Of a stretch of 49,526 nucleotides of DNA, positions 19,340 to 39,800 are shown piece after piece. The stretch spans positions 1 to 49,526 of the forward strand of contig CANQLR010000019.1 in NCBI GenBank assembly GCA_947624745.1. Direction: 5' to 3'. This stretch comes from an uncultured Clostridia bacterium. Lineage in GTDB: Bacteria > Bacillota > Clostridia > Oscillospirales > Ruminococcaceae. The translations under genes and the position numbers were made by a program. The notes below the pieces were generated by a model. The model was not told the origin of the DNA and did not search any database. It worked only from the letters and a program-made list of their open reading frames with translations. Each line of letters opens with the position of its first letter. Position 1 is the stretch's first letter.

Positions 19340-19429
19340 GGCGAAGCCCCGGCCGCCCGCGAAGCGGGCGGCGGTTCAGCCACGCTTGCGTGGTCGAACG
19401 TGAGCCGAAGGCTCACTCGGGGCTTCGCC
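19340..19429. repeat. Branched palindromic element A
   Basis: Outer stem GGCGAAGCCCC (19340-19350) pairs perfectly with GGGGCTTCGCC (19419-19429). Inside are three separate hairpins: 19352-19372 (9 pairs, loop GAA), 19380-19393 (CCACGC-tt-GCGTGG) and 19400-19416 (GTGAGCC-gaa-GGCTCAC). This is a cloverleaf-like four-way fold with no tRNA features. A GCACTTT/AAAGTGC hairpin follows at about 19440-19468. Confidence 0.8.
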
Positions 19430-19588
19430 GCGCTGGGTCTGCACTTTGCTTCAGTGAGGCGGAAAAGTGCAGGCATGCTGCAAGTAGAGGCACGAAGGCG
19501 GGGCAATGCTGCAAAAACCGGGGAGGAGCGGCCCAACGGTGCGGTTTCTGCACTTTACTGCAGCAAGGCAGAAAAGTGCGGGCATGGG

Positions 19589-19680
19589 GGCGAAGCCCCC
19601 GCCGACCACGGAGTGGCCGGCGGGCCGGGAGGCTCCGCCTCCCGGTTGCGCGGAGCAAAGCTCCGCACAGGGGCTTCGCC
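19589..19680. repeat. Branched palindromic element B
   Basis: Same outer stem (19589-19599 with 19670-19680). Its three arms have unrelated sequences but the same design: 19601-19621 (GCCGACCAC-gga-GTGGCCGGC), 19625-19645 (CCGGGAGGC-tcc-GCCTCCCGG) and 19650-19666 (GCGGAGC-aaa-GCTCCGC). Confidence 0.8.
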
Positions 19681-19687
19681 GCACGCA

Positions 19688-19779
19688 GGCGAACCCTCGC
19701 GGCGGCAGCGGAGCTGCCGCCGCGCCGCACACGCAAGCGTGTACGGCTCAGGCGCGCGGAGCGCGCCTGAGGGTTCGCC
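19688..19779. repeat. Branched palindromic element C
   Basis: Outer stem is a compensated variant, GGCGAACCCTC (19688-19698) with GAGGGTTCGCC (19769-19779). Arms: 19699-19723 (11 pairs, loop GGA), 19729-19742 (ACACGC-aa-GCGTGT) and 19748-19770 (TCAGGCGCGC-gga-GCGCGCCTGA). The matched change on both sides of the outer stem argues that pairing is what is kept. Confidence 0.8.
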
Positions 19780-22534: not shown

Positions 22535-22624
22535 GGCGAAGCCCCGAGGCGCCCGAAGGGCGCCTCGCCGCCGCACACGAAGTGCGGCGGGTGAGACTGC
22601 GAAGCAGGCTCACCGGGCTTCGCC
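22535..22624. repeat. Branched palindromic element D
   Basis: Outer stem GGCGAAGCCC (22535-22544) with GGGCTTCGCC (22615-22624). Arms: 22546-22566 (GAGGCGCCC-gaa-GGGCGCCTC), 22568-22590 (CCGCCGCAC-acgaa-GTGCGGCGG) and 22591-22613 (10 positions, loop GAA). Arm 2 is identical to that of element G at 39324-39346, while arm 1 is different. Confidence 0.8.
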
Positions 22625-22665: not shown

Positions 22666-22758
22666 GGCGAAGCCCGGGGTGCGCGCGGAGCGCGCGCCCG
22701 CCGGACGTTCTTGCACGTCCGGCATGGCGGCAATTTCATTGCCGCCACGGGCTTCGCC
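22666..22758. repeat. Branched palindromic element E
   Basis: Outer stem GGCGAAGCCCG (22666-22676) with CGGGCTTCGCC (22748-22758). Arms 22677-22699, 22700-22723 (GCCGGACGT-tcttgc-ACGTCCGGC) and 22725-22747 (TGGCGGCAAT-ttc-ATTGCCGCCA). It is separated from element D by only 41 bases. Confidence 0.8.
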
Positions 22759-22908
22759 CGGTGCGGGTCTTGCTCTTTGCTGCGGTGAGGCAGGGTGGAG
22801 GCGAAGTCGCCGCTCCAACGGGTTCGCTGCGCAACGGGCACTAAGGTGCGAGTCAGAAGTCGATTGGCCGTTGTGCCCCCTCCCCACCGGGGAGGGGGCA
22901 GGGGATGG

Positions 22909-23124
22909 GGCTTAAAATAGCATGAGCGAAGCGAATACCTTATGGCAGCTTGTGCGGGGCTATATCGAAATTGAGTAAAGCGCAGTGAGCAGGAGGCGAA
23001 GCCCTAATCGCGCCCTCGGCGCGATTCCCGCCTCGTGACGAATTTTGAAGGCTTGCAAAATGCCGAATTTGCCGCAATTTATAATGATAGTACAAACCCC
23101 TACGTGCGGCGGGGCTTCACCCTA
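22909..23124. repeat. Structured repeat, second subfamily, left of the RM island (element I)
   Basis: Begins with a conserved lead-in (ATAGCATGAGCGAA, GCGAATACCTT, GGAGGCGAAGCCCTA), then arm 23006-23026 (AATCGCGCC-ctc-GGCGCGATT), a linker of roughly 80 bases, and the closing GGGGCTTCACCCTA (23111-23124). The same layout, in the same orientation, occurs at 28977-29232 and, without the full lead-in, at 39649-39800. Confidence 0.75.
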
Positions 23125-23604: not shown

Positions 23605-26160
23605 ATGAGCAACAACGGTTACTTTTTTGAAGACTATGCCATACCTGAAGATTTGCAAAAGTTGCAAGAGCAAATCACTAACAACAAAGTTTATATGGAA
23701 CTGGAAAAGATCCAACGCCGCATCGACGATTTATATCCCCCTTCACTGAGGGAATACTCGGCAAAGATGCAGTCGTATCTGAACGAATATGCCGAGATGG
23801 TTGCGAAGCTTCAGGAGGAAATTGCTTTATTTTCTCCGATTTTTGATGAATTGAAAAGATATGATGATTTTTATGACAATGCGTTTGCCTCTATTGCTCA
23901 AAATCAAGCCGCCATGGAGTTAATGGCAGATATAGACTCTTATGCTATTTGGGACATATTCTCCTCATTTAAAGAAAGCGAAAAAATATCGCAAGAAATA
24001 AACATTGACACCGCCTCCGCTCTATATGCCGAAGGTAAAATCACCGATGAAGATATTGTTGAAGAAGTCGGCGAAATGGTATCTAAAAAAGATTTTTCTT
24101 TTTCCGATACATGGGATAATTTCAAAAAGTCAAAATGGTTTTTGGCGATTCGAGTTGTGTTTGTGATCCTGACATTTTTGGCAAGCCCAGCCATTGACAG
24201 AGCAAAAGATGATATTCTTGAAAAGATGAGGGCGAACGAATTCTGGAAAGAATCAGGTGTTTTAGAGCAAATTGACAAATTCTTCGGCATTAAAAGCGGA
24301 GCCGTTTCCGAACAGGAGGCAAAAGACACTGTTTCGGAAGAAAACGTCGGCAACATTTCAAAGAAAAAGCGCGAGAGCCTGCTGCAAAAGATCCAGGCGA
24401 TACGCGACTACATTTCCGCCGCTCCGCAGGACGAGAACACGGGCAATCTGCTTGCCTATCTTTCCGAGCTGGAAAAGGACGTGAACGGCAAAAAGTACGG
24501 GCTGGTGTTCGAGGAGCATCGGGAGGAGATAGACGAGGTGCTTGACACCCACACGCCTGTTCTTACCGAGGAAAAGGAGCTGTTTATCGACAACGGCGGG
24601 CATATGAATTTTCTAATTGAGGGAGATAACCTTGCCGCGCTCAAGCTGCTTGAAAAGACGCATAGGGGAAAAATCGATCTTATTTATATCGATCCGCCGT
24701 ATAATACAGGGAATATGGACTTTACTTATAATGACAAAAATATTGTCGAGTCAGATGAATATCGTCACAGCAAATGGATTTCCTTTATATCGGAACGATT
24801 GCGTATCGCAAAAAAACTTATTTCCACAGATGGAGTTATAGTTATTAGCATTGGCCATCAAGAGGTTAATAATCTCATGCTAATATGTCAAGAAATGTTT
24901 TCTGATAAAAATATAACTTGCATTACAGTGCAAACTTCAGGCGGAAAGCCAAACAGCGGCTTTAATTATACACATGAATACGTTGTTTTTATTGCTCCTT
25001 TTGATTTTGAACCAGCCGCAAGTGAAACAGCAAGGAATGAATACAGCTCTCCCTACCATGGAATGAATTTGGCTACTTTTGACCAAGTCCAAAGACCAGG
25101 TCAAGCATACCCGATTTATGTGAGCAATGACGGAGTACTTGTCGGGTGCGGAAAAACGCTTACAGAGCGGGTAAAATGCGGTGAGTATGTTGGCGAATTG
25201 CGTGATTTTATTTATGATTATTCCGAAGCTCCGGAGGGTACTGTTGCAATATGGCCGGTCACTAAAAAAGGAACTCCTTGCGTCTGGAGGCTGATCCCTT
25301 CTCGCCTTGTAAACGATTGGCAAAAGGGATATATTAAAATTGTTCCTCAAAATCAAGGTAAAACAAACAATGTCTTTGCAATCCAATATTTGTCAGACGG
25401 AATAATACAAAAGATTAAAAATGGTGAACTAACAACGTTCCGATTTTCCGAGGATAGCAGAATACCAACATTAGAAGTTGAAAACTATCGTACAGCAGGA
25501 GCGACAATACAAACTATCTGGACAGATAAAGCTTATTATACTTCAAATGGCGGAAAAGAAATCGAACAAATTCTTGGCAGTAAAAAAGCCTTTTCATACC
25601 CAAAACCACTTGAATTAATTAAAGAAATTGTTCAGAGAACTACACAGGAATGCTCAATTGTCCTCGACTTCTTCGCCGGCTCCGGCACAACGGGTCACGC
25701 TGTCATGAAGCTGAACGCCGAAGACGGCGGCAGCCGCCGGTTTATCCTTTGCACCAACAACGAAAACAATATCTGCCGCGGCGTTACATACGAGCGTATC
25801 AAGCGGGTCATCGACAAGGAGAGCTATGCTGCTTCGCTAAAATATTACAGGGTGGACTATGTGCCTATCGACGAGCGAATGTATTATGAATATGCGGACG
25901 AGCTTTTAAAGCATATCCGCGAGCTGGTGGAGCTTGAAAACGGCGTGAACTTTATCGGAAACGCCGAGATTGGAATCGTTTTGACCGAGGAGGAGCTTGA
26001 AGCCTTTGTGTCAAATGCGGACGCGTTCTCAAAGTGCAAAAAGCTGTATATAGGTCATGACCTTTTGCCGACTCAGGATCAGGAAAAAGCCTTGGCGGAG
26101 CACGGGATAGAAATAAGCATTATCCCCGACTATTATTATAGGGATCTACAGGAGAGATGA
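23605..26160 (+). CDS. mod: Type III DNA methyltransferase (Mod) with N-terminal membrane-type extension
   Basis: 851 residues, some 200 longer than usual Mod subunits. Residues about 250-851 are a beta-class adenine methyltransferase: IEGDNLAALKLL, catalytic D363-PPY in IDPPYNTGN, then the SAM-binding FFAGSGTTGHAV (about 690). The AT-rich stretch between them (about 24660-25640) should hold the target recognition domain. Residues 1-245 are extra: a coiled-coil-like helix region, an acidic stretch, and one hydrophobic segment WFLAIRVVFVILTFLASP (about 177-196). Mod recognises the site and adds a methyl group to adenine and forms a complex with Res. The 4-base overlap with res shows one operon. 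The extension could tether the enzyme to the membrane or be a fused partner protein; this is inference. Confidence 0.9.
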   Translation: MSNNGYFFEDYAIPEDLQKLQEQITNNKVYMELEKIQRRIDDLYPPSLREYSAKMQSYLNEYAEMVAKLQEEIALFSPIFDELKRYDDFYDNAFASIAQNQAAMELMADIDSYAIWDIFSSFKESEKISQEINIDTASALYAEGKITDEDIVEEVGEMVSKKDFSFSDTWDNFKKSKWFLAIRVVFVILTFLASPAIDRAKDDILEKMRANEFWKESGVLEQIDKFFGIKSGAVSEQEAKDTVSEENVGNISKKKRESLLQKIQAIRDYISAAPQDENTGNLLAYLSELEKDVNGKKYGLVFEEHREEIDEVLDTHTPVLTEEKELFIDNGGHMNFLIEGDNLAALKLLEKTHRGKIDLIYIDPPYNTGNMDFTYNDKNIVESDEYRHSKWISFISERLRIAKKLISTDGVIVISIGHQEVNNLMLICQEMFSDKNITCITVQTSGGKPNSGFNYTHEYVVFIAPFDFEPAASETARNEYSSPYHGMNLATFDQVQRPGQAYPIYVSNDGVLVGCGKTLTERVKCGEYVGELRDFIYDYSEAPEGTVAIWPVTKKGTPCVWRLIPSRLVNDWQKGYIKIVPQNQGKTNNVFAIQYLSDGIIQKIKNGELTTFRFSEDSRIPTLEVENYRTAGATIQTIWTDKAYYTSNGGKEIEQILGSKKAFSYPKPLELIKEIVQRTTQECSIVLDFFAGSGTTGHAVMKLNAEDGGSRRFILCTNNENNICRGVTYERIKRVIDKESYAASLKYYRVDYVPIDERMYYEYADELLKHIRELVELENGVNFIGNAEIGIVLTEEELEAFVSNADAFSKCKKLYIGHDLLPTQDQEKALAEHGIEISIIPDYYYRDLQER

Positions 26161-28346
26161 GCATGGAACTTAAAGAATTTCAATTGACCGCCGTGAGATC
26201 GCTGTTTGAAGCTATGGACAAGCCTGCGAGGGACATAATCCTCAAAAGCCCGACGGGCAGCGGCAAAACAATAATTTTAACCTATTTCATGCACCAGTAC
26301 ATACAGTCCTATCCCAAAACCGTCTTTGTATGGCTCACTCCCGGCAAGGGAAATCTTGAGGAGCAAAGCAAGGCAAAAATGGATAAATATATCCACGCCT
26401 CACAGACAAAGCTCCTTGCCGACGTCATGACCTCGGGTTTTGAAGAAAACGACAGCTGCTTTATCAACTGGGAAAAGCTCACCAAAAAAGGCAATAACGC
26501 TCTTAAAGACAGCGAGCGCACTAATTTTTTGGAGCATATTCGGAACGCTCTTAACGACGGTTTGCATTTTGTCATCATCGTGGACGAAAGTCATCAGAAC
26601 AACACGATCAAAGCCGACGAAATAATTCAGTATTTTCACACGGATAAAATAATTCGCTGCTCTGCTACTCCGAAAGGGGTCGCAAATGCGGAGATCATCG
26701 AGATCCCCGAAGAAGAGGTCATAGCGGCGGGGCTTATTAAGAAAATGCTTGTCATAAATCAGGACTTTCCCCAGACGGTGGAAACGGACGATCAGACGGC
26801 GTATCTGCTTGATAAGGCGCTAAATAAGCAAAGAGAACTGCGCTCGGCTTTTGCTCAGATAGGCAGAAGTATTAACCCGCTTATAGTAATACAGATCCCG
26901 AACAAGTCGGATATCCTGCAGGACGAGGTGGAGAGTTATCTTGAAACCCAGGGCTTGAATTATGAAAACAAACAGCTTGCCTGCTGGCTATCGGACAGAC
27001 ATGAAAATCTTGATGGCATTGAAGCTAACAACGCCGACCCCTGCGCTGTCATCATCAAGCAGGCAGTCGCGACGGGCTGGGATTGCCCGAGGGCGCATAT
27101 ACTTGTCAAGCTCCGCGACAACATGGACGAAACCTTTGAAATACAGACTATAGGTCGCATTCGCCGTATGCCAGAAGCAAAACACTATCAAAACGACCTT
27201 TTGGACAGCTGTTATCTCTATACATTTGATGAGAAATTCACCGCTGGCGTAAAGACTGCTTTGGATAAGGGTGCTTTAAATGCCTGTACCATTTTCCTTA
27301 AAAGCGAGTATAAAAATATCACCCTTATAGGCGAGCAGAGGACGATGATAACTACGACTCGCAGCCCTCAAAAGGCGCTTCAGGCAATTGCCGATTTTGC
27401 ACAGAAAGAGTACGGCGTCGGCGCTGATAAAACCGAAAACTGCACACGTTTGCAAACGGCGGGCTTTGAAATGAACGAAAATATTGTCAGGCATACTTTT
27501 TCGGGAGAGGCTGCCACGCTTAACTTTTCTTCCGAAGATATGAATGACATCGCGGTAGTCGAAAAGCTTAGCACGCATACTCACGGACGCGAATATCACC
27601 GAACCATAGGTAAAATCGGTCTGGAGATCGGCATGGAGTATTCATATATGAATACAATTATCCGCAAACTGCTTGACAGGAATTTTACCTATAACCGCAA
27701 AATTCTCGCTTTAGAGCCGAGAAGCGTATATTCGTTTGTTATCAACAACGCCGACAAGCTCAGGCATCTTGTCCGTGAGGCTATGGCATTTGAAATGGCG
27801 CAGCAGCAAATGGATATGCCGTCTAAATCATACTTTGAATTTCATATACCGAGCTCCTGCCTTTTCACCTATAACGGTGACGCCAAAACTCAGCTTGTAA
27901 TGGAAAAGAATGTATATCAGAATTATCTTTCATCGGCGGCTCCTCGCTCTATGCCTGAAATTAAATTTGAAAAATTCTGTGAGCAAAGTGGCAGCGTGGA
28001 GTGGTGGTATAAAAACGGCGATAAAGGCAACGAATATTTTTCAATCGTTTATCAGGACAATTCCGGCAAGCAAAAGCTGTTTTATCCCGACTATCTGATC
28101 GGCGTAAACGGGGAGATATGGATTATTGAGACAAAGGGCGGCTTTGACCGCAGCGGAAACAGTCAGGACATCGATATTTATACTCCGAAGAAATTTGCGG
28201 TCCTGAAATCATATCTTGACGAGCATGGAATGAAAGGCGGGATAGTCCGCAATGATGACTTGACAGATGAACTTTGTATATGCATGGACCACTACTCGGA
28301 AGATATTGGAAGCGATGATTGGGCTGTTTTGAAAAGTATATTATAA
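26157..28346 (+). CDS. res: Type III restriction enzyme Res subunit (helicase-nuclease)
   Basis: 729 residues. An SF2 helicase core with Walker A SPTGSGKT (about 29-37), DExH-type motif VDESH (about 142), the RCSATP motif III, and motif VI QTIGRIRRMP. Near the C-terminus a PD-(D/E)xK nuclease motif is visible: YPDYLIG then WIIETKGG (about 643-660). It translocates on DNA from unmethylated sites and cuts, in complex with Mod. Shorter than EcoP15I Res (about 970) but all key motifs are present. Start ATG 26157 overlaps the Mod stop (ATGA); ATG 26163 is an alternative. The gene appears intact, so the system is probably active. Confidence 0.9.
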   Translation: MSMELKEFQLTAVRSLFEAMDKPARDIILKSPTGSGKTIILTYFMHQYIQSYPKTVFVWLTPGKGNLEEQSKAKMDKYIHASQTKLLADVMTSGFEENDSCFINWEKLTKKGNNALKDSERTNFLEHIRNALNDGLHFVIIVDESHQNNTIKADEIIQYFHTDKIIRCSATPKGVANAEIIEIPEEEVIAAGLIKKMLVINQDFPQTVETDDQTAYLLDKALNKQRELRSAFAQIGRSINPLIVIQIPNKSDILQDEVESYLETQGLNYENKQLACWLSDRHENLDGIEANNADPCAVIIKQAVATGWDCPRAHILVKLRDNMDETFEIQTIGRIRRMPEAKHYQNDLLDSCYLYTFDEKFTAGVKTALDKGALNACTIFLKSEYKNITLIGEQRTMITTTRSPQKALQAIADFAQKEYGVGADKTENCTRLQTAGFEMNENIVRHTFSGEAATLNFSSEDMNDIAVVEKLSTHTHGREYHRTIGKIGLEIGMEYSYMNTIIRKLLDRNFTYNRKILALEPRSVYSFVINNADKLRHLVREAMAFEMAQQQMDMPSKSYFEFHIPSSCLFTYNGDAKTQLVMEKNVYQNYLSSAAPRSMPEIKFEKFCEQSGSVEWWYKNGDKGNEYFSIVYQDNSGKQKLFYPDYLIGVNGEIWIIETKGGFDRSGNSQDIDIYTPKKFAVLKSYLDEHGMKGGIVRNDDLTDELCICMDHYSEDIGSDDWAVLKSIL

Positions 28347-28976: not shown

Positions 28977-29232
28977 TGGTGGGGCTTGAGATAGCATGAG
29001 CGAACTTGAAAGCGAATACCTTGTAGCAGCTCATGCAGGACTATACCGAAAATCCGAGTAATGCGCAAGAAACACGGAAGGCGAAGCCCTAATCGCGCGT
29101 ACGCGCGATTCTCGCCGTTGTACTATTTTGAGGGATTAGCTTAATTATGAATTATTCTGCAAATTATAAGGATAGCGCAAACCTCACTAACGGCGGACAA
29201 CATTCGCTCTGCGAATGTTGGGGCTTCGCCCT
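28977..29232. repeat. Structured repeat, second subfamily, right of the RM island (element J)
   Basis: Same orientation and layout as 22909-23124: lead-in GATAGCATGAGCGAA, GCGAATACCTT, then GGCGAAGCCCTA (29080-29091), a perfect 20-base palindrome at 29091-29110, a roughly 85-base linker, an arm at 29198-29220 (CAACATTCGC-tct-GCGAATGTTG) and the closing GGGGCTTCGCCCTA. The last bases contain the stop codon of the Spo0A_C gene on the other strand. Confidence 0.78.
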
Positions 29233-34625: not shown

Positions 34626-34741
34626 ATATGCAGGCTCACGGGCGGGCTGTGTCACACAAAGCATTCCGCTTAATGCTGCTCGGTTCCCCGCCTGACATGG
34701 TTCACGGCGCCCTGTTGCACAGAACCCGTGCGCCTGCATAT
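34626..34741 (-). ncRNA. ffs: Small signal recognition particle RNA (4.5S type)
   Basis: The minus strand folds into a long hairpin closed by ATATGCAGGC / GCCTGCATAT (34741-34732 with 34635-34626) and ACGGG / CCCGT. At the tip is the SRP helix 8 core: GTGAACCATGTCAGGC, tetraloop GGAA between CGG and CCG, then GAGCAGCATTAAG. This binds Ffh for membrane targeting. About 116 bases, without an Alu domain. The position just upstream of dnaX is typical for Firmicutes. Confidence 0.93.
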
Positions 34742-38983: not shown

Positions 38984-39178
38984 GGCGAAGCCCGGGCGGC
39001 ACACATAGGGGCCCCGCAAAGTCGTAAGACTTTGCGGGGAGAGGAGGAGCAGCGGAATGAGTGAGTCCCGACGAACAGGAGGGGCGAGGGATATGGAGCT
39101 TGCGACGACGAGCTGCCGCCATGCCCGCCGAGCTTGCTCGGTGGGCGGTGCGCGTAGGACGCGCACACGGGGTTCGCC
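38984..39178. repeat. Branched palindromic element F (expanded)
   Basis: GGCGAAGCCC at 38984-38993 and GGGGTTCGCC at 39169-39178 enclose arms CCCCGCAAAGTC-gtaa-GACTTTGCGGGG (about 39012-39039), GCCCGCCGAGC-ttg-CTCGGTGGGC (about 39123-39146) and GTGCGCGT-agg-ACGCGCAC (about 39148-39166). An 80-base purine-rich insert separates arms 1 and 2. Confidence 0.65.
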
Positions 39179-39289
39179 CGCGCAGGGGCTGCACTTTGTG
39201 CCTCTAACGCAGTAAAGTGCGGGTCTGCACGTGCAAGTAGGGGCAGGGAAGCGGGTGATTTTGCAAAACTTTGGGAGGGGCACTGAATG

Positions 39290-39381
39290 GGGCGAAGCCC
39301 CATGGCGCTCGAAGAGCGCCATGCCGCCGCACACGAAGTGCGGCGGGTGAGCCTGCGGAGCAGGCTCACAGGGCTTCGCCC
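39290..39381. repeat. Branched palindromic element G
   Basis: Outer stem GGGCGAAGCCC (39290-39300) with GGGCTTCGCCC (39371-39381). Arms 39301-39323 (CATGGCGCTC-gaa-GAGCGCCATG), 39324-39346 (same as element D arm 2) and 39347-39369 (GTGAGCCTGC-gga-GCAGGCTCAC). The flanking linkers 39179-39289 and 39382-39488 are near-copies of each other. Confidence 0.82.
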
Positions 39382-39488: not shown

Positions 39489-39561
39489 GGGCGAAGCCCG
39501 GGGTGCGCGCAGAGCGCGCAACAGGCCCGGGCGGCAATGAAATTGCCGCCCGGGCTTCGCC
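39489..39561. repeat. Branched palindromic element H (two arms)
   Basis: GGGCGAAGCCCG at 39489-39500 and CGGGCTTCGCC at 39551-39561 enclose GTGCGCGC-aga-GCGCGCA and a long arm GGGCGGCAAT-gaa-ATTGCCGCCC whose base merges into the outer stem. Confidence 0.72.
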
Positions 39562-39648: not shown

Positions 39649-39800
39649 GGCGAAGCCCTAAGCACGCCTCCGGCGTGCTTCCCGCCGCGCAATATCTATA
39701 AGGTTTATCAAAATGGCGAAAATTCTTCTTTTCATAAGGCCGCATATCTCCATCGCCGCGGCGGACAACGCCCACTCTGTGGGCGTTGGGACTTCGCCCT
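39649..39800. repeat. Structured repeat, second subfamily (element K)
   Basis: GGCGAAGCCCTA (39649-39660), arm 39660-39680 (AAGCACGCC-tcc-GGCGTGCTT), linker with ATAAGG words, arm 39766-39788 (CAACGCCCAC-tct-GTGGGCGTTG), closing GGGACTTCGCC. It is the third copy of the layout that brackets the RM island. Confidence 0.75.

Follow-up and report, generated by a model that had tools for sequence, protein, structure and literature searches.

MITEs are short non-coding units that are bounded by a fixed inverted repeat and dispersed as units, and REPs that carry a GTAG tag are thought to be moved in trans. The available portion of PMC3733652 gives the size of REPs as 20–40 bp and assigns GTAG or CGTC tags to most of them. 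Ultrastable DNA mini-hairpins, according to an excerpt of PMC4686876, consist of GNA loops closed by G-C pairs; and arm homogenisation together with spacer inversion are described as products of template switching in the accessible parts of PMC8604942 and PMC8794818. A yeast table in section 6 of PMC8604942 contains ten template-switch spacer inversions; every one of the four triloops among them is GNA/TNC, and the dinucleotide cases include AA/TT. The repeats analysed here, referred to as cloverleafs, constitute a clade-restricted, high-copy family situated outside predicted genes.

Cloverleaf elements in the window

The window, by which is meant the whole stretch of 49,526 nucleotides under analysis, contains six short cloverleafs, one two-armed derivative, two full long forms and one damaged long form, plus fragments. 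These elements and the associated spacer repeats are as follows:

19340..19429, no strand assigned: short cloverleaf A, 90 nt, loops GAA / TT / GAA
19438..19477, plus strand: flanking spacer repeat, a GCACTTT...AAAGTGC imperfect hairpin
19547..19586, plus strand: second copy of the flanking spacer repeat, 85% identical
19589..19680, no strand assigned: short cloverleaf B, 92 nt, loops GGA / TCC / AAA
19688..19779, no strand assigned: short cloverleaf C, 92 nt, outer stem compensated to GGCGAACCCTC/GAGGGTTCGCC
22535..22624, no strand assigned: short cloverleaf, 90 nt
22666..22758, no strand assigned: short cloverleaf, 93 nt
22995..23121, minus strand: damaged long-form cloverleaf, 89 bits with model R1
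29080..29230, minus strand: long-form cloverleaf, 151 nt, with an insert of about 74 nt in the middle arm
39110-39179: cloverleaf fragment, given as one example among several
39291..39380, no strand assigned: short cloverleaf, 90 nt
39490..39561, no strand assigned: two-armed derivative, 72 nt
39649..39798, minus strand: full-length long-form cloverleaf, 129.8 bits with model R1

The architecture originally predicted for elements A, B and C, an outer stem closing three hairpins with 2–4 nt loops and compensated in C, was confirmed for all three at the expected positions. The stem, of about 11 bp in each, is GGCGAAGCCCC/GGGGCTTCGCC in A and B. Folding of A, B and C as DNA is predicted to give a four-way junction (z = -8.2, -6.1 and -7.7, respectively), as is folding of both strands as RNA (z from -6.2 to -9.8), and for each element none of 200 shuffles matched the stability of the native fold. 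The genes on either side of the trio, which encode a beta-galactosidase and a barnase-type ribonuclease (PF00545), form a divergent pair. The elements had been taken to stand in tandem; they are indeed three clustered copies, but do not form an even array, since A and B are separated by 159 nt that hold the two copies of the spacer repeat. The estimate of eleven related copies in 49 kb was roughly right, if short, two-armed and long forms and fragments are counted together.

The spacer repeat abuts one side of many cloverleafs in the window's genome, and inspection by eye revealed none in the cloverleaf flanks listed for other species. A third short intergenic repeat, at 22895-22929 of the window (query GCTCGCGAGCTCGCTCATGCTATTTT...CCCCTGCCCC), often adjoins long-form cloverleafs and was found at 31 further places in a 439-kb sample of the genome, a count that includes the query itself. 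The window also houses, at 23605-28346, genes for a DNA methylase and, after it, a ResIII-type helicase, which resemble a type III restriction-modification pair; and, on the minus strand at 34633-34731, the Bacterial small SRP RNA (Rfam RF00169, 67.2 bits).

The three-arm frame

The window's genome (2.57 Mb in 100 contigs) contains 153 exact matches to the outer stem at the correct gap, and 155 when a wider gap is allowed. The same pattern read backwards, used as a control, has no match in this genome, and elsewhere was matched in 2 of 297 genomes of the family and 2 of 394 of the order. A sequence-blind detector, whose sole requirements are a perfect outer stem and hairpins one after another, was run on the 439-kb sample and returned 34 three-armed, two two-armed and one four-armed junctions, against none, one and none, respectively, in one shuffle by 2-base blocks. 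GCGAA is present in the outer stem of 33 of the 34 three-armed junctions. When the outer stem was instead made the sole criterion in the same 439 kb, exactly three hairpins were found in 28 of 29 matches; because the interior was left unconstrained in that search, the three-arm rule is genuine and no artefact of the detector. Three hairpins were likewise present in 61 of 62 candidate elements, with lengths of 86–95 nt (n = 61), the candidate left out being a single hairpin of 111 nt; the outer stem is 9–12 bp in all 61, although outer pairing had been part of their selection. The outer stem GGCGAAGCC is conserved between species, while the arms are hypervariable yet Watson-Crick paired. A second multi-hairpin intergenic repeat family, whose outer sequence differs from that of the cloverleafs, was noticed at C2:81385-81501 of the window's genome (L169) and at nine more places in the 439-kb sample, with matches of about 93–117 nt at 72–98% identity.

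Covariation in the arms was assessed through pair counts, with shuffled and slid controls. At 39 of the 42 arm positions examined there are three or four Watson-Crick pair types, and pairing in the arms is 91–100%, compared with 9–65% when slid by one, the pairing percentages being inflated by the detector's own demand for pairing. The triloops obey a simple rule: of 179 in the window's genome, 155 are GNA or its reverse complement TNC and 165 are closed by C-G, and of 213 from other species the counts are 186 and 205, the GNA/TNC share being 87%. Each outer strand, GGC-GAA-GCC, also follows the GNA rule, and AA and TT are the two commonest dinucleotide loops in the window's genome. The loops of arms 1 and 3 agree in polarity in 45 of 57 elements of the window's genome and in 25 of 41 from other species.

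The long form

Searching for cloverleaf ends set further apart revealed a long form of 149–156 nt (n = 28). Its arms 1 and 3 are like those of the short form, and its middle arm is a CCGCCG/CGGCGG stem around some 74 nt that are AT-rich and semi-conserved. Covariance model R1 was built from 27 copies: the 28 less three divergent ones, with the addition of the window copy and one other. It has 97 matches in the window's genome, of which at least 93 are long (at least 74 bits, the model's own copies included); this is a lower bound, as 99 candidates were scored per genome. Matches in 14 other genomes span 73–106 nt and reach at most 72.3 bits, and are thus short forms, so that among the 31 genomes of the genus long-form matches come from the window's species only. 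In the long-form alignment 99.2% of pair cells hold standard pairs and two-sided changes occur at 15 pairs; the covariation score is 0.296, compared with 0.130 when shuffled and at most 0.068 when slid, while further pair types number 22, fewer than the 25.6 of the shuffles. None of the 23 long copies tested falls within a predicted gene. A coding role for the insert was set aside by eye, insert lengths of 84–89 nt breaking the frame. Other insertions into the middle arm measure 206 nt (L020:985) and 283 nt (C1:157051).

Distribution

The outer-stem pattern is present in 16 of the 31 genomes of the genus, and in all 14 genomes of one clade (those at least 65% identical to a marker protein of the window), with 3–153 matches each. 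One locus was taken from each of 11 clade genomes (G311-G321, loci L203-L213) and all 11 fold with three hairpins; the strict detector passes nine of them, the loci of G312 and G313 failing. Beyond the clade, one of the five matches in G300 was checked and proved to be a cloverleaf, and one of the two in G301 was checked and did not. At wider range, 6 of 297 genomes of the family match, one of these matches (in G029) being no cloverleaf, and 11 of 394 of the order; the detector failed there for three single matches outside the family, one of which (L231) folds into three weak hairpins, and for G656. A second genus (g16) contains true cloverleafs with different arms, with 15 matches in G583, three in G204 and two in G015. 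Low-complexity repeats of the AGAGGTCAGAAGTCAGA type adjoin cloverleafs in several species (flanks of L073, L096, L100 and L133; G319 loci).

A scan of 84,980 named species returned at least 96 loci, and among the matches listed 62 are clostridial and 34 are not; a cloverleaf is present in 58 of these 62 and in none of these 34. Spread into other phyla was accordingly rejected, the non-clostridial loci probably being chance matches. Most of the clostridial loci come from MAGs that are named 'uncultured Clostridia' and labelled Lapin (the French word for rabbit, which is presumably the host), and there are indications that many belong to the window's own genus. Viral carriage was also discounted: three viral contigs contain the outer-stem pattern, none of them as a three-armed cloverleaf.

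How the arms change

On a tree of close copies with 50 edges, 45 two-sided changes from one Watson-Crick pair to another were counted; one-sided changes by which a pair was lost or gained numbered 49. Over the same tree, 8 of 16 changes in three-base loops are exact inversions, as are 2 of 46 changes in loops of one or two bases. In one array the whole 76-nt element of one copy is the same as in two others except that the middle loop GAA has become TTC. The yeast GNA/TNC inversions may provide a parallel, though the comparison is our own and rests on four events. The original prediction had read matched stem changes as the mark of selection on folding. That inference is not established: since template switching also yields both two-sided changes and loop inversions, the same signature, covariation here is by itself no proof of selection. 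For the covariation of the cloverleafs, the best reading is template switching within a frame that stays fixed.

Dispersal and candidate movers

Movement was assessed with 43 elements of one high-copy relative (201 matches), among which 20 pairs are at least 95% identical. Mean flank identity over all 20 falls from 100% at the first base outside to about 50% by the fourth, and in 13 of the pairs both flanks are less than 55% identical at 20–60 nt out. Near-identical copies thus stand in unrelated flanks, the similarity ending a few bases beyond the outer stem, and the unit therefore disperses; in seven of the 20 pairs one flank or both are shared, so that local duplication is at work as well. 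In G148 two elements are missing from an orthologous gene pair, where the divergence of the flanks prevents the site from being defined. Among the hits of 82 and 44 joined flanks, inspection by eye showed no clean empty site, and no target duplication was found in the same comparisons. A search of part of the genome and the loci for an autonomous parent, bounded by cloverleaf ends as much as 4 kb from each other, gave 46 candidates, and none of the 40 shortest (at most 363 nt) was seen by eye to bear a gene.

A link to a RAYT had been put forward and the corresponding search was run. Y1 transposase (PF01797) matches occur in 8 of the 31 genomes of the genus, including ten in G314 and two in G319; the only one in the window's genome (C14:2928-3259; L039, L040) is spread over two frames with internal stops, and is a broken gene. 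No match was obtained in the carriers G148 (25 copies), G318 (20), G317 (15) and G320 (73; 76% complete), and no GTAG/CGTC tag shared by element ends was seen by eye in the flank lists. The link was therefore not borne out, and a RAYT/Y1 transposase was rejected as the mover. Loss of the hairpin nuclease SbcCD was also considered as a cause and showed no pattern, SbcD being found in the high-copy G319 and in G148, and weakly in the window's genome (41.9 bits, below the cut-off).

Gene context

Genes were predicted with a simple home-made codon-usage caller, which is crude and misplaces some starts; it called about 82% of the sample coding. All 33 short elements lie outside the predicted genes, and the one three-armed detector hit inside a gene is the one with the unrelated outer stem. 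The genes neighbouring the short elements are in tandem in 14 cases, divergent in eight and convergent in seven, with four at sample edges, and TTTT is absent within 12 nt of either end in all 33; these two observations together argue against terminators. Some of the wider flanks contain separate terminator-like hairpins. A cloverleaf between phoU-like and phoB-like genes (named by eye from their translations) is common to several species (L158:4778, which is C1:24778 of the window's genome; L143; L045; and G148 by its listed sequence), and the unusually high DNA similarity of this stretch possibly reflects recent transfer or constraint. Rfam 15 gave no hit over the elements at gathering score, only two at chance level (E 0.44 and 0.94), so that a known RNA family was rejected.

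Interpretation

The explanation favoured here, to which roughly even confidence is attached, is that cloverleafs are non-autonomous, palindrome-only mobile DNA repeats that are defined by their shape, their arms being rewritten by template switching and their movement depending on a putative structure-recognising mover. The frame would be the fixed outer stem GGGCGAAGCC/GGCTTCGCCC with its three hairpin arms. While the DNA is single-stranded in replication, the arms would form compact hairpins whose loops are of the C-GNA-G type, and template switching by the polymerase within them would homogenise the arms and flip the loops, so that arm sequence may drift fast while the palindromes persist. 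Those copies still able to fold into the three-armed form would then be copied or inserted by the putative enzyme, whose selection of foldable copies would keep the outer stem, the number of arms and the size. The middle arm appears to tolerate cargo, the insert of about 74 nt there defining the long form in the window's species. Weighing against this explanation are the lack of any mobilising enzyme, clean empty site or target duplication in the searches, the seven pairs with a shared flank, and the copy next to the phoU-like gene that several species retain. A stronger proposal is that cloverleafs represent a new class of mobile DNA recognised by its three-dimensional shape, in which the single-stranded cloverleaf with its GNA loops is the substrate of the putative enzyme, template switching rewrites the arms and the middle arm is a cargo site; this is put forward only tentatively, and is rather doubtful.

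If template switching alone created and perfected intergenic palindromes, without mobility or function, the cloverleafs would be a mutational by-product. The two-sided changes and loop inversions speak for this, as do 93 more perfect triloop hairpins in intergenic DNA outside the short cloverleafs (part of them probably arms of the unmasked long form), but it leaves unexplained why the outer stem is constant between species, why there are exactly three arms within a narrow length, and why near-identical copies stand in unrelated flanks, and is considered unlikely. A structured RNA or transcript element, such as a terminator, a stabiliser of mRNA 3' ends or a regulator, whose RNA fold is under selection, has in its favour the very stable predicted RNA fold on both strands, the copy kept between the phoU-like and phoB-like genes, and the view, in the available portion of PMC3733652, that many REPs are transcribed and act as RNA. 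It is nonetheless improbable, given the mixed orientation of neighbouring genes (14 tandem, 8 divergent, 7 convergent, with the window trio between divergent genes), the absence of TTTT near the ends of 33 of 33 elements, and the lack of any Rfam family at gathering score. Nor is selection at the RNA level, one of two options in the original prediction, supported by the equal numbers of G-T and A-C mismatches (40:41). The strand bearing the GNA loop is random with respect to the local coding strand (15:14), so that a bias with coding direction was dismissed; orientation here is set by the GNA loops only, and an unrelated RNA strand would still be compatible with this.

The cloverleafs could also benefit the host, and be kept for that reason, by providing sites for a protein that organises the chromosome or binds structures (nucleoid, topoisomerase or recombination), as the pattern in 14 of 14 sampled genomes of one clade, the location outside predicted genes and the AT-rich, semi-conserved insert in at least 93 long copies might suggest; yet copy number ranges from 3 to 153 within that clade, the arms are hypervariable and the long form comes from 1 of 31 genus genomes, and there seems to be only a small chance that this is correct. 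Least credible, and already disfavoured, is that these are REP/BIME elements moved by a RAYT (a Y1 HUH transposase): they are multi-copy intergenic palindromes, and there is one broken Y1 gene in the window's genome besides the ten matches in G314 and two in G319, but four carriers (G148, G318, G317 and G320) are without a match, and no common GTAG/CGTC end tag was seen by eye.

Cloverleafs are a natural test case of how much compensatory change can be made by mutation without selection, one genome offering hundreds of paralogous hairpins that show arm homogenisation and loop inversion. They are also an unusual genomic setting for a GNA mini-hairpin rule known from in vitro work. If the mobility by shape that is favoured above holds true, the range of mechanisms known to move small DNA repeats in bacteria would be widened.

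Comparison with known repeats

Among the papers listed by the literature searches, none describes such cloverleaf repeats to judge by title or the start of the abstract, and a search with the letters of the outer stem gave, among the matches listed and by title, no paper on a bacterial repeat. With the d(GCGAAGC)-type mini-hairpins treated in the excerpt of PMC4686876 the cloverleaf arms share their C-GNA-G triloops, which are an in vitro DNA folding motif there and the arm tips of a genomic repeat family here. Arm homogenisation and exact spacer inversion are likewise common to the cloverleafs and to the template-switched inverted repeats of PMC8604942 and PMC8794818, which in the accessible parts of those papers are single scattered events, whereas here a whole dispersed family is held in a fixed three-arm frame.

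REP, BIME and REPIN elements with their RAYTs are, like the cloverleafs, short, high-copy, intergenic palindromes of bacteria and are often clustered. The original prediction had set the closed three-arm junction, multi-copy and with strongly covarying arms, apart from REPs of one or two hairpins, and this distinction is supported. Against the 20–40 bp given for REPs in the available portion of PMC3733652, cloverleafs measure about 90 or about 151 nt, and are closed and three-armed with hypervariable arms; in contrast to tagged REPs and their Y1 enzyme, they have no GTAG/CGTC tag by eye and several carriers have no Y1 match. High copy number and extragenic location are thus shared with REPs, while size, tag and a RAYT in carriers are not, and in the strict sense cloverleafs are not REPs. 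They are candidate members of the MITEs, which they resemble in having terminal inverted repeats, in the form of the outer stem, and in dispersing as units; they differ in that the interior of the short form consists of hairpins only. Neither a target duplication nor a parent transposon was seen among the sequences searched. The best reading is that cloverleafs work like dispersed, non-autonomous palindromic repeats, akin to REPs and MITEs and yet a distinct variant.
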